Shown piece after piece: positions 7,260-11,959 of a stretch of DNA of 55,326 bases. Each line of letters begins with the position of its first letter. The first letter of the stretch is position 1. Location of the stretch: contig CALJNC010000005.1 in NCBI GenBank assembly GCA_937981995.1, positions 1-55,326 of the forward strand, in the 5' to 3' direction. The notes beneath the pieces were generated by a model. It worked only from the letters and a program-made list of their open reading frames with translations, made no database searches and had not been told where the DNA came from. A program made the translations under genes and the position numbers. Origin of the DNA: an uncultured Chitinophagaceae bacterium (lineage in GTDB: Bacteria; Bacteroidota; Bacteroidia; Chitinophagales; Chitinophagaceae).

Positions 7260-8117
7260 ATGAGACAACTCAAAATAGCTACTCAGATTACCAATAGGGA
7301 TAGTCAGTCAGTAGAAAAATACCTCCAGGATATAAGCAAACTACCTATGGTTACACCAGAGGAAGAGGCGAGTCTTGCACGTGAAATACGTACAGGTAGC
7401 GATGCCGCTTTGGAAAAATTGGTTATGGCCAATTTAAGATTCGTAGTATCGGTTGCAAAACAATATCAACACCAAGGATTAACCTTGAGTGATTTAATCA
7501 ATGAAGGAAACCTTGGTTTAATTAAAGCGGCAGGCCGTTTTGATGAAACAAAAGGATTTAAATTTATTTCATACGCCGTATGGTGGATTCGTCAATCAAT
7601 TTTACAGGCTCTTGCTGAGCAAGGACGTTTAGTACGTTTGCCTCAAAATAAAATTGGTGCTTATAATCGTGCAAACAAAGCAATTATTGCTTTTGAGCAG
7701 GAGCATGAAAGACAACCTTCAGTAGAAGAGCTTTCTAAGATTTTGGAAATGTCTGAAACTGAATTATCTAACATTTTTACAAGTAATACACGTCATGCTT
7801 CGCTAGATGCGCCGGTTACCGATAGTGAGGATGTAAGCATGGGAGAATTACTTGAAGGAAGTAATGATACTGATAATGAAGTAATGCAGGATAGCTTGCG
7901 TAACGAAATTTTTAGAATCCTTAAATCATTAAGCCCTCGTGAGAGTGAAATCGTAATGGCTTACTTTGGCTTAGGTGGAAATGAAGGTCCTACGATTGAG
8001 CAAATAGGTCAGAAGTATGATTTAACTAAAGAGCGTATACGTCAAATTAAAGAGCGTGCAATTAAGCGCTTACAAAAAGGAAGATACTCTAAGTCTTTAC
8101 AGGCTTACTTAGGTTAA
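7260..8117 (+). CDS. rpoD: Primary (housekeeping) RNA polymerase sigma factor
   Basis: This is the 285-aa sigma-70 factor that directs RNA polymerase to housekeeping promoters. It lacks region 1.1 and starts with region 1.2 (SVEKYLQDISKLPMVT). Region 2 follows, with NLRFVVSVAKQYQHQG, the core-binding LINEGNLGLIKA and the YAVWWIRQ melting segment. Region 3 covers roughly residues 130-200. Region 4 covers roughly 215-275, with the helix-turn-helix in TIEQIGQKYDLTKERIRQI. The short length (about 285 aa) is characteristic of the Bacteroidota primary sigma, which recognises TAnnTTTG promoters such as those found throughout this window. It is monocistronic: it has its own promoter and is followed by a strong terminator. 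Confidence 0.97.
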   Translation: MRQLKIATQITNRDSQSVEKYLQDISKLPMVTPEEEASLAREIRTGSDAALEKLVMANLRFVVSVAKQYQHQGLTLSDLINEGNLGLIKAAGRFDETKGFKFISYAVWWIRQSILQALAEQGRLVRLPQNKIGAYNRANKAIIAFEQEHERQPSVEELSKILEMSETELSNIFTSNTRHASLDAPVTDSEDVSMGELLEGSNDTDNEVMQDSLRNEIFRILKSLSPRESEIVMAYFGLGGNEGPTIEQIGQKYDLTKERIRQIKERAIKRLQKGRYSKSLQAYLG

Positions 8118-8777: not shown

Positions 8778-8915
8778 TTACTTTTTCTTGTTGGGATTTA
8801 ACTGCTTTCCTTTATTTCCTTGAGATTTATCATATTGTTTGTTGGTGCCTGAAGTTCCCTTATTTGCATTCTTTTGATTTGACTGATTATCCTTTGGACT
8901 TACTTTTTTACTCAT
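8778..8915 (-). CDS. Small basic 45-aa protein coupled to the nuclease-like gene
   Basis: The gene starts with ATG at 8915-8913, overlapping the TAA stop of the upstream nuclease-like gene in a TAATG junction, the usual arrangement for translational coupling. The 45-aa product is almost entirely Lys, Asn, Gln, Gly, Ser and Thr, ends in PNKKK, and has no hydrophobic core, so it should be disordered and positively charged. It has no cysteine or tryptophan. It could bind nucleic acid or the upstream protein. It could also be a non-functional open frame, but the exact stop/start overlap argues for a real gene. Confidence 0.6.
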   Translation of the reverse strand: MSKKVSPKDNQSNQKNANKGTSGTNKQYDKSQGNKGKQLNPNKKK

Positions 8916-9826
8916 TACTTTTTATTTTTATTTATTGATTGCTTTATTAAGCTTAGAATATATTCCAAATATTCATCTGAATGAATTTGCAATTCATAGT
9001 CCCCGTTTCCCCAATGTCCAGTTGTTGAGACATCTCTTGTAATTCCTTTTGGGTCATCTAATTCGCCTTTATTTAAGTTAATCCACAGTTTAAGAGCTTT
9101 CTTTTGAGGGTGAACATCAATGACATTTCTTCCAGAAACAAAAGCTATATATTTCTTCTTTGGCTTAATTTCTACATTATCTAAATTAAGAATTGAGTTC
9201 TTTAGTTTCTCATATAATTCTTTTATTTCTTCGTTTGCTCTCTCTAAATGTTCTTCTTCTGAATATACTTTAATCTCCCTGGCTACATTGTCGATTGTTT
9301 TGTCAGCCTTAGATATTGTTTTAATACTTTCTTGTGCCCCGGCTTTTTGAATTTGTTCATATGAAACTGTAGTGTTAGCGAATCGCTTAACTTCCCATAA
9401 TTCAATTGGCAAATCTTTGAAGTTTATAGCTTCTCTTTGATAAGTTGTAAATGCAGGTGAAACAAACAATACTCTTGATTGAGACCAATCAACATCAGTT
9501 CTCTTTAAGGTTTTATCAAGATTCTCGTTGAATTCCAAAATAAAATCTGCTTTGTTATTTAGCATTAATGATAAGTAAGCGTATCCTTGATCAATTACAC
9601 TGAAGTTCTTGTCTCTTTTATATTCAATAATCACAAAAGCATTTGCTTCATTATCAAAAGCAAGAGTATCAATTCTAAAGTTGTTTAGAGCAAATTCAGA
9701 TTTGACCAATTTTAACCCGAAAATAGATTCTAAATTTTTCTCTGTTAAGTCTTGTATTTCTTTTTCAAGCTTAAATGGCTTTTCCTTTATATACTCTAAT
9801 TGCTTTCCCACTTTATATAGTGCCAT
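8915..9826 (-). CDS. PD-(D/E)XK nuclease-like protein with C-terminal DUF5655 domain
   Basis: The 303-aa cytoplasmic protein has two parts. Residues 1-150 look like a restriction-endonuclease fold of the DUF91/NucS kind: FRIDTLAFD supplies the metal-binding Asp and AFVIIEYKRDKN the E-x-K pair, in the order seen in PD-(D/E)XK enzymes, after an EKNLESIFGLKLV helix. Residues 200-300 match the DUF5655 (HEXXH-less, beta-rich) type, with KKYIAFVSGRNVIDVHPQK and an ending rich in acidic residues. A charged helical linker joins them. Such proteins are common in accessory regions and sometimes next to restriction systems, but no methylase is nearby. It is followed by the coupled 45-aa gene. The start is preceded within 25 bp by a ~117-bp repeat. 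Confidence 0.8.
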   Translation of the reverse strand: MALYKVGKQLEYIKEKPFKLEKEIQDLTEKNLESIFGLKLVKSEFALNNFRIDTLAFDNEANAFVIIEYKRDKNFSVIDQGYAYLSLMLNNKADFILEFNENLDKTLKRTDVDWSQSRVLFVSPAFTTYQREAINFKDLPIELWEVKRFANTTVSYEQIQKAGAQESIKTISKADKTIDNVAREIKVYSEEEHLERANEEIKELYEKLKNSILNLDNVEIKPKKKYIAFVSGRNVIDVHPQKKALKLWINLNKGELDDPKGITRDVSTTGHWGNGDYELQIHSDEYLEYILSLIKQSINKNKK

Positions 9827-10310: not shown

Positions 10311-10375
10311 ATTGGCTCAAAAAACACAATGATTGGCTCATATTGGCTCATTTTTTATACCTTTGTTGAGCCAAT
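10311..10375. promoter_or_regulatory. Operator cluster at the fic promoter (ATTGGCTCA repeats)
   Basis: The 9-mer ATTGGCTCA occurs three times in direct orientation (10311-10319, 10332-10340, 10342-10350) and once inverted, as TGAGCCAAT (10367-10375), directly next to the fic ATG. The -7 element lies between the third direct copy and the inverted copy. Exact repetition on both sides of a promoter is what a repressor or activator operator looks like. The obvious candidate binder is the winged helix-turn-helix at the Fic C-terminus. Confidence 0.8.
10358..10365 (+). promoter_or_regulatory. -7 element of the fic promoter
   Basis: TACCTTTG matches TAnnTTTG. It lies 10 bp before the fic ATG, so transcription should begin within a few bases of the start codon and the message should be leaderless or nearly so. 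A TTGG inside the second operator copy (10333) is about 22 bp upstream and may serve as the -33 element. Confidence 0.65.
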
Positions 10376-11404
10376 ATGAAATTATTCAACTTTAAAATAG
10401 AGTTAGACTGGAATACGCTTCGGCTATTACGTGAGCTAGATAAATTTGATAGCCAATGGGGAAGAATTAGCAAAATTGAAGGGAGTAGTCTGCAACAGTT
10501 GAAATCGTTGGCTACAATCCAAAGTATAGGGTCCTCTACAAGAATTGAAGGTGCTACACTGAGCGATAAAAAAGTGAAAACTTTATTGGACAATTTAGAT
10601 ATAACCGAGCTTGAAGATAGAGATTCGCAAGAAGTCGTAGGATATTACAATGTACTTGATGTAATTATCGATTCCTTTCAAACCATTGAGGCTTCAGAAG
10701 CTAACATCAAAAACTTGCATAATATCTTGCTCAAATTTAGTGAGAAAGACCATTGGCACAAAGGGCAATACAAACAACACTCCAATGCTGTGCAAGCCAC
10801 TTACCCAGATGGTTCTACTCAAATTATTTTTAAGACAACATCACCGGGAGTTGCTACCGAAGAAGCTATGCGCGCATTGATAGACTGGCACCAAAGAGTG
10901 CAGGATGTGCACCCTTTGGTGGTCGTATCAGCCTTTGTATATGAATTTTTAAGTATTCATCCTTTTCAAGACGGCAACGGACGACTTAGTAGATTACTTA
11001 CCAGCCTGCTCCTTTTACAAAAAGGAATTGATTGGATACAATTTATCAGTTTTGAACACGAAATAGAGCATCGTAAAAAAGAATACTATCAAGCCCTGCG
11101 AAATTGTCAAGTACAAAGACCAAATGAACCAATAACAGAGTGGGTTGTTTTCTTTATAAGTGCATTACATAATATGATGCGCAAATTGGAAAAGAAACTA
11201 AGTGTTTCAGGAACTGGTTTAGATGCAAAAGAAAAGGAAGTCTTTCAATACATAAATGCCAATGCCTCTTGCAAATCTGGCGAAATATCTGAGAAATTAC
11301 AAATTCCAAAACCCACGCTTAAAAGGATACTAAACCGATTGCTAGATAAAGAGCTAATTACTCGATTAGGCAAAGGCGCTGGCGTGCATTATACTCCAAA
11401 ATAA
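10376..11404 (+). CDS. Fic-family AMP transferase, class II, with C-terminal winged helix
   Basis: This 342-aa Fic/DOC protein would transfer AMP (or another nucleotide part) to a hydroxyl of a target protein. The catalytic motif HPFQDGNGRLSR spans residues 195-206 with H195 as the base. An N-terminal inhibitory helix carries S54-TRI-E58-G59, matching the (S/T)xxxE(G/N) motif of self-inhibited class II Fic proteins, so activity should be restrained until that helix is displaced. Residues from about 275 form a winged helix-turn-helix (SGEISEKLQIPKPTLKRIL), the usual architecture of chromosomal Fic-wHTH proteins. It is alone in its transcript. Its promoter is covered by four copies of a 9-bp operator, which suggests self-regulation. 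The target is unknown. Confidence 0.93.
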   Translation: MKLFNFKIELDWNTLRLLRELDKFDSQWGRISKIEGSSLQQLKSLATIQSIGSSTRIEGATLSDKKVKTLLDNLDITELEDRDSQEVVGYYNVLDVIIDSFQTIEASEANIKNLHNILLKFSEKDHWHKGQYKQHSNAVQATYPDGSTQIIFKTTSPGVATEEAMRALIDWHQRVQDVHPLVVVSAFVYEFLSIHPFQDGNGRLSRLLTSLLLLQKGIDWIQFISFEHEIEHRKKEYYQALRNCQVQRPNEPITEWVVFFISALHNMMRKLEKKLSVSGTGLDAKEKEVFQYINANASCKSGEISEKLQIPKPTLKRILNRLLDKELITRLGKGAGVHYTPK

Positions 11405-11542: not shown

Positions 11543-11959
11543 TTATTTTTTATTTGGATACGGATTGTCTAAAGAAGACTCTCTCCAAATACTTTTATCA
11601 GCCCTTTCAAGAGCTTCTTCTAAGTTAAAGCCTTTTCCCATATTTTGAATTAGAGTCTCGTCTGTATCCTTGGTTATTCCCTTTGTTTCTCTTTTTAAAA
11701 AGTAAGTTATACGATTTAGAATGTCTCTGTTGTTCGAGAGGACTTCGAAAACGAGTGGATCATCATTAATTTTTCCTATGTCAAATGTTTCATTATCAAT
11801 TTCTCGACTCGACATATACAGTTCTGACCATTCACGACTTGCAGGATTCCAACTATCTCCGTCAGAGTCAATATTATGGTTTTCACCCCATAGGAAAATC
11901 CAAAACAATCTAAAGTCTGGTCGTTCTGAATTGATCTGTACTTCTATTCTATGATTCAA
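11543..11959 (-). CDS. Hypothetical protein (138 aa)
   Basis: This is a 138-aa acidic, tryptophan-rich cytoplasmic protein without signal peptide, membrane segment or recognisable domain. The N-terminal half looks beta-rich (MNHRIEVQINSERPDF, FWIFLWGENHN) and the C-terminal half alpha-helical. The compact size and accessory location would fit an orphan immunity or antitoxin-type protein, but no partner gene is adjacent and this is only inference. It is enclosed by outward-facing GCTACAAC ends: site C follows its stop and repeat copy B precedes its start, as if gene plus ends formed one mobile unit. Confidence 0.7.
   Translation of the reverse strand: MNHRIEVQINSERPDFRLFWIFLWGENHNIDSDGDSWNPASREWSELYMSSREIDNETFDIGKINDDPLVFEVLSNNRDILNRITYFLKRETKGITKDTDETLIQNMGKGFNLEEALERADKSIWRESSLDNPYPNKK

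Follow-up and report, generated by a model that had tools for sequence, protein, structure and literature searches.

A short array of repeats over the promoter of a Fic gene is most likely dedicated to that gene and read by the winged helix of the adjacent gene's own Fic product, so that bound protomers would cover the promoter and repress their own gene. Comparison of promoter and protein sequences indicates that self-repression via a private, helically phased array is the rule in a large, multi-phylum subfamily of Fic proteins with a C-terminal winged helix-turn-helix (Fic-wHTH). Winged-helix Fic proteins are widespread and some are single-protein anti-phage toxins, while the way in which they are kept quiet is, to our knowledge, poorly understood. 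Operators of this kind would make those of many new subfamily members readable straight from the genome, and activity-coupled autorepression becomes directly testable.

The fic gene and the repeats over its promoter

The window, by which we mean the whole 55,326-base stretch of DNA analysed, carries four exact copies of ATTGGCTCA that together span 65 bp before a Fic-wHTH gene (Table 1), with TACCTTTG, which we take to be a Bacteroidota-type -7 element (TAnnTTTG), between copies 3 and 4. Exact matching confirmed the preliminary description in that three direct copies and one inverted copy of 9 bp surround a promoter element within this distance, and in that the inverted copy ends just before the start codon. 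Copies 2 and 4 lie in opposite orientations with 26 bp between them, and the TTG at 10333–10335 in half-site 2 presumably falls near the expected place of the -33 element, as inferred from Bacteroidota promoter spacing.

Table 1. Positions of the features discussed, in window coordinates unless a contig is named
Feature	Position	Strand	Basis and remarks
Operator half-site 1 (putative), ATTGGCTCA	10311..10319	+	exact match; position kept in L039 and L040
Operator half-site 2 (putative), ATTGGCTCA	10332..10340	+	exact match; 21 bp after copy 1
Operator half-site 3 (putative), ATTGGCTCA	10342..10350	+	exact match; 10 bp after copy 2
-7 promoter element (presumed), TACCTTTG	10358..10365	+	TAnnTTTG; read from sequence
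Operator half-site 4 (putative), inverted	10367..10375	-	exact match; abuts ATG at 10376
Fic-wHTH gene, 342 aa	10376..11404	+	predicted class II Fic AMPylase with C-terminal winged helix
Inhibitory motif STRIEG, aa 54–59, N-terminal	10535..10552	+	class II autoinhibition; alignment of 28 sequences
Fic active-site motif HPFQDGNGRLSR, aa 195–206	10958..10993	+	alignment of 28 sequences
Winged helix-turn-helix domain, C-terminal, about aa 281–340	11216..11395	+	Pfam, AF2
Recognition helix KPTLKRILNRLLD, aa 312–324	11309..11347	+	AF2, co-variation
R317 codon, in recognition helix	11324-11326	+	co-varies with half-site position 9
DUF5655 gene, divergent neighbour of fic	8915-9826	-	Pfam; PADLOC PDC-S18, 4e-143
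Further Fic-wHTH gene of the same genome (L258)	contig C26:6573-7655		TCGGCTCA/TGAGCCGA array
Further Fic-wHTH gene of the same genome (L260)	contig C72:6275-7360		GCGGAGA array

The cluster is exceptional in its surroundings. Five matches to ATTGGCTCA occur in the window against 0.59 expected, and none of 100 shuffles gave at least five; no other 9-mer with three or more different bases and a minimum of two G/C recurred at least three times within 70 bp, either in the window or in 60 whole-window shuffles. Across the 2.73-Mb genome ATTGGCTCA occurs 32 times and the same pattern read backwards 6 times, the only copies less than 300 bp apart being these four, and a search for the tandem ATTGGCTCATATTGGCTCA that tolerated up to 3 mismatches gave a single match. 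Exact or near-exact tandem sites revealed no regulon in this genome. The 28 scattered single copies elsewhere in it exceed the backwards control.

Pfam assigns to the gene product a Fic domain (4.5e-15) and several HTH families, with matches to TrmB, MarR_2, HTH_24 and Penicillinase_R at about aa 280–341. Fic enzymes carry the motif HPFx(D/E)GNGRxxR, and those of class II an N-terminal inhibitory motif (S/T)xxxE(G/N); both are present here, the first as HPFQDGNGRLSR and the second as STRIEG. Across the 28 aligned sequences S54, R56, I57 and E58 are invariant and G59 nearly so, and H195, P196, D199, N201, G202, R203, S205 and R206 are likewise invariant. Because both motifs are intact and largely invariant, the product probably has AMPylase activity and is held in check by class II autoinhibition, the rule for which is as given in PMC9755527; it is perhaps an anti-phage or toxin-like enzyme held at low level. 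The AF2 model (mean pLDDT 86.7) places the winged helix in helices 284–295, 301–308 and 312–324 and wing strands 328–331 and 338–341. Its Fic fold retrieved Fic or FICD proteins in all 50 PDB matches listed, CbFic2 and SoFic among them, and comparison with 8uqu_B gave a TM score of 0.89, normalised by target, over the N-terminal domain.

Since the divergent DUF5655 neighbour matches PDC-S18, a candidate defence model in PADLOC, it may form a small defence locus together with fic. Short ORFs lie downstream of fic. A convergent 138-aa ORF on that side (11543–11959, minus strand) matched nothing in Pfam, NCBIfam or PADLOC. The Fic winged helix had been described as the only DNA-binding domain nearby, which is not strictly so, as a sigma-70 gene with DNA-binding regions (7260–8117) ends 2.3 kb upstream.

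Helical phasing across the subfamily

Among the matches listed, the nearest relatives of the window protein are those of a Saprospiraceae MAG (L039) and a Chitinophagales MAG (L040), at 61% identity. The three direct copies keep their positions in both, in the 21 + 10 layout; copy 1 reads ATTGGCTCA in L040 and, with one mismatch, ATCGGCTCA in L039, and the -7-like element reads TATATTTG and TATATTTA, respectively. The inverted copy was found upstream of neither gene. Because these two relatives keep the direct copies without the inverted one, conservation attaches to the three direct copies, the fourth being lineage-specific to date. Of the relatives examined, just these two share the 9-mer, the rest carrying a half-site of their own.

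To describe the wider subfamily we assembled 115 genes whose products match the window protein with 150 bits or more, with relatives taken from the best 80 of at least 561 confirmed candidates and one further search supplying loci for 30 of 42 matches, the window among them. Of these, 107 were kept, L011 and L014 being set aside for masked or short upstreams and 6 genes for redundancy. Recurrence of exact 6-mers between -110 and +15 was counted lag by lag, without motif discovery, with the upstreams of neighbouring genes at the same loci as control. A lag of 10 bp, the commonest spacing in the subfamily, was present in 79 of 107 fic promoters (73.8%) versus 8 of 260 neighbouring-gene upstreams (3.1%), and at least one of the helical lags 10, 11, 20, 21 and 31 in 98 of 107 versus 36 of 260. 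The prospect that homologues would be devoid of repeated promoter motifs is contradicted by these helically phased repeats; nine genes have none. Lags 11, 20–22 and 31 are raised as well, lags 12, 15, 35 and 44–45 less so, and the off-phase lags 14, 15, 16, 25 and 26, taken together as a control, show a far smaller, yet still somewhat raised, excess (23/107 versus 29/260).

Helical-lag repeats occur in 19 of 104 segments 300–425 bp upstream at the same loci and inside 16 of the 107 genes, and are retained in 53 of 59 promoters when each 70%-identity cluster is represented by a single gene; at 50% identity there are just 7 clusters, 6 of them with such a repeat. A strict 7-mer shuffle test was passed by 60 of the 107 promoters (p ≤ 0.05). 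A held-out set was drawn from loci L212–L257, from which L216 (the window), L226 (which duplicates L010) and L236 (a frame with stops) had been removed beforehand and 6 of the remaining 43 were then dropped, leaving 37 genes, about a third of which come from one genus and are not independent; 30 of these 37 have a helical-lag repeat under a slightly looser filter.

These observations bear on the idea that the repeats arose by chance or as the relic of a mobile element, for instance through expansion by slippage, and have no regulatory role. Slippage can produce short repeats; here, however, the copies are spaced and not contiguous, their positions are kept in L039 and L040, and across groups the letters vary while the helical phase is kept, a phase whose 10-bp lag is rare in neighbouring-gene upstreams. 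We regard such an origin as very improbable.

In the arrangement that we favour, successive half-sites at distances of 10, 21 and 31 bp would present roughly a single DNA face to several Fic protomers, which would bind them and cover the -33/-7 region together with the likely transcription start, repressing fic, with the inverted copy at the ATG as a lineage-specific extra. An inverted copy of any kind occurs in 17 of the 107 genes and is missing from 90. We also considered a palindromic-dimer layout as the family rule and rejected it, most inverted distances being near the control and a few (33–35 and 53 bp) modestly raised. Of the 107 relatives, 39 have TAnnTTTG between -45 and -5, the 68 without it including members of other phyla, and in 32 of those 39 promoters half-sites are found on both sides of it. 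This flanking is compatible with activation or mixed control, in which Fic on the upstream direct repeats would activate or stand poised, repression being left to the downstream copy alone. In a histogram of positions, nevertheless, half-site copies are most frequent within 35 bp upstream of the ATG, a placement that speaks for blockage of promoter and start, and CccR, the characterized relative discussed below, is a repressor (PMC9755527); we therefore hold activation or mixed control to be unlikely.

Repeats also accompany other Fic families that have a DNA-binding domain, with a geometry of their own. A 7-mer present at least three times, with both strands counted, was found upstream of 61 of 107 window-type genes, 26 of 37 L020-type genes and 5 of 16 L029-type (SoFic-like) genes, compared with 8 of 260 neighbouring genes and 0 of 21 L032-type Fic genes, of which 3 have a helical-lag 6-mer. 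Pfam detects Fic in all 21 L032-type proteins and HTH in none (L194–L196 and L199 were scanned to the first stop). Duplicated 8-mers discriminate less well, being present in 96/107 window-type, 34/37 L020-type, 9/16 L029-type and 6/21 L032-type genes and in 87/260 neighbours. In this comparison L160 and L174 had no usable gene and L211 a short upstream. The L020 type, which we take to be the DUF4172 family, and the L029 type show inverted pairs and direct lags of 33–34 or 40 bp. Many of the upstreams of L020 and L150–L179 carry arrays resembling GCGGAGAATA/TATTCTCCGC, which run in both orientations and show a 33–34-bp direct lag.

Two more Fic-wHTH genes, both of the L020 kind and both with repeats of their own, are present in the genome of the window itself (Table 1). 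Because the half-site of the C26 gene, TCGGCTCA, differs from the window half-site TTGGCTCA by one base, cross-binding between the two systems is possible; by eye, the presumed recognition helices KATATR and KPTLKR have K, T and R in common in register, and convergence and cross-talk of the C26 and window Fic proteins are possible on these sequences.

Relatives of the window protein are found in 2 of 50,697 phage records at E ≤ 1e-20 (29.5% and 33.8% identity) and in 58 of 72,556 plasmid records at E ≤ 1e-40. Thirty of the plasmids are typed as conjugative, and Rhizobium and Agrobacterium account for 29 of the 58; stretches were taken from 6 of the 58 records, and L252, L253 and L255 are among the plasmid relatives. 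Proteins of about 486–514 aa, which continue past the winged helix with additional C-terminal sequence, were observed in L010, L048, L052, L053, L125, L131, L137 and L141.

Half-site letters and the recognition helix

Most per-gene half-sites fit a common frame, NNN[CT]G[GTA][ACG]T[ACG][AT], within which the letters differ from group to group together with the helix. The half-site TTGGCTCA of the window, L039 and L040 goes with K/R-P/A-T-L/V-K-R, CGTATCA with PTVKR, CGGATAT or CGTATAT with LPTVKK, TGGATA with RNTLKK, TGGGTGT with RNTLKQH and CTTATAT with RPTVN. Over 106 genes (L060, which has only gaps in the helix columns, was left out), half-site distance tracks recognition-helix distance once Fic-domain distance is controlled for (partial rank correlation 0.366, reached in 0 of 2000 permutations), and the reverse partial correlation is weaker (0.141).

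The strongest single pairing joins residue 317 to half-site position 9. A C at this position is present in 20 of 22 Arg317 genes and in 4 of 84 others, 8 of which have no clear base there; the four exceptions all have Lys317. With a phi of 0.83, R317/C9 ranks top among all protein columns and residues, and on the Fic-domain tree its 7 changes in the protein and 9 in the base include 5 coincidences of like direction (null 0.44; 0/2000). By mutual information, column 313 ranks top for half-site position 7, and at positions 4, 5, 6 and 8 the lead is taken or tied by columns that lie outside the helix. Three further pairings were set aside: residue 312 with position 4 agrees in 88 of 105 genes by count, with its coincident tree changes reached in 279/2000; N313 with T4 also agrees by count, with coincident changes reached in 413/2000; and P313 with C4 has zero coincident changes.

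Applied to the held-out genes, rules learned on the training set gave 19 of 33 correct predictions. R to C was right in 2 of 2, D/E to G in 4 of 4 and K to A in 12 of 12, including L237, L240 and L249, whose half-sites are unconvincing. The training rule that any other residue at 317 goes with A failed in 14 of the 33, genes with V, G, L or M having G in 14 of 14, and because of these failures the residue–base code is incomplete. In the held-out gene L244 a KKDL-type helix contains KR, and the half-sites (AGCTCA, AGCCCA, GGCTCA) look window-like by eye. The sequences nonetheless indicate a partial specificity code, in which R317 goes with C9 and K317 with A9.

Because half-sites follow the recognition helix, with R317 marking C9, the reader of the array is very probably the winged helix of Fic itself. 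One could suppose instead that another regulator, for example one that controls several defence genes, reads the array, while the Fic winged helix contacts the AMPylase domain or binds DNA unspecifically. CbFic2 of Coxiella burnetii showed high affinity for random DNA (PMC10628234), and the toxicity of Sofic depends on contacts between its C-terminal domain (CTD) and its AMPylase domain (PMC12249575). A separate regulator is nevertheless improbable, as half-site changes track the helix of the adjacent Fic protein beyond relatedness, partly so in the held-out set, and as Fic genes with no detectable HTH have no array. In the genomes searched, moreover, the array occurs at fic only; a search of 12 genomes with one exact tandem pattern of the CGTATCA type found 9 sites in 6 of them, all 9 just upstream of fic. 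From the suggestion of a self-regulating AMP transferase, autoregulation via the protein's own winged helix is the element that gains support, from the phased repeats, the helix co-variation and the lack of arrays, by the three-copy test, at all 21 genes in which Pfam detects no HTH. The accompanying idea, that the modification state of the enzyme could alter repression, is a conjecture on which published work points both ways: the regulatory and toxic activities of CccR are described as independent (PMC9755527), and the Sofic CTD, required for toxicity, touches the AMPylase domain and has a different orientation in the apo form and in an ATP-bound homologue (PMC12249575). Physical binding, cooperative occupancy and repression we infer by analogy, with CccR as precedent.

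A bolder possibility, which we consider doubtful, is that the array serves as a DNA scaffold holding autoinhibited Fic protomers in phase, with occupancy and activity coupled, the operator acting as an antitoxin and the half-sites being private. If so, loss of occupancy through nucleotide change, DNA damage or phage takeover would free a toxic AMPylase and derepress its gene, and a lineage-private half-site would keep paralogues in one cell apart.

Comparison with known systems

The closest precedent is CccR of Yersinia pseudotuberculosis, a class II Fic protein with an HTH at its C terminus, which binds repeats in the promoter of its own gene and is an autorepressor on the evidence of reporter assays, EMSA and footprinting (PMC9755527; also described in PMC10628234). 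According to PMC9755527, its footprinted operator consists of two 10-bp inverted repeats with 26 bp between them, CccR is a T6SS-secreted effector, and its regulatory and toxic activities are described as independent. The window protein resembles it in having a C-terminal winged helix and repeats over its own promoter, for which an operator role would be the natural reading. The inverted window copies 2 and 4, of 9 bp each, are likewise 26 bp apart, but copy 4 is not conserved and phased direct repeats prevail in the subfamily. Unlike the two inverted boxes of CccR, the window type is built of phased direct repeats and mostly lacks an inverted copy, and by eye the half-site letters of CccR seem unrelated to those of the window.

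The combination of a class II Fic domain with a C-terminal domain is shared with the anti-phage proteins SoFic and EcSofic, and the Sofic CTD is twisted outward in the apo form relative to an ATP-bound homologue (PMC12249575). The PADLOC SoFic model, which shows no curated cut-off, matches the window protein at 3e-45 and 153 bits and L029 at 389 bits. We do not file the window protein as SoFic because it reaches 60.7 bits on the NCBIfam SoFic equivalog NF046030, far under the cut-off of 550. The promoters differ as well, the SoFic-like L029-type genes having inverted repeats and a 40-bp direct lag unlike the window. Newer SoFic entries are present in the PDB, 9VJC among them. CbFic2 shares the Fic and winged-helix domains of the window protein and its DNA binding has been demonstrated; it differs in that random DNA was used and that the accessible part of PMC10628234 describes no operator.

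Phased direct-repeat arrays at Fic genes and a recognition-helix code were not found described in the open-access literature searched. Within that literature, a self-repressing Fic-HTH protein is known once before, in CccR, and what appears to be new is the phased direct-repeat layout, its generality and the partial specificity code.
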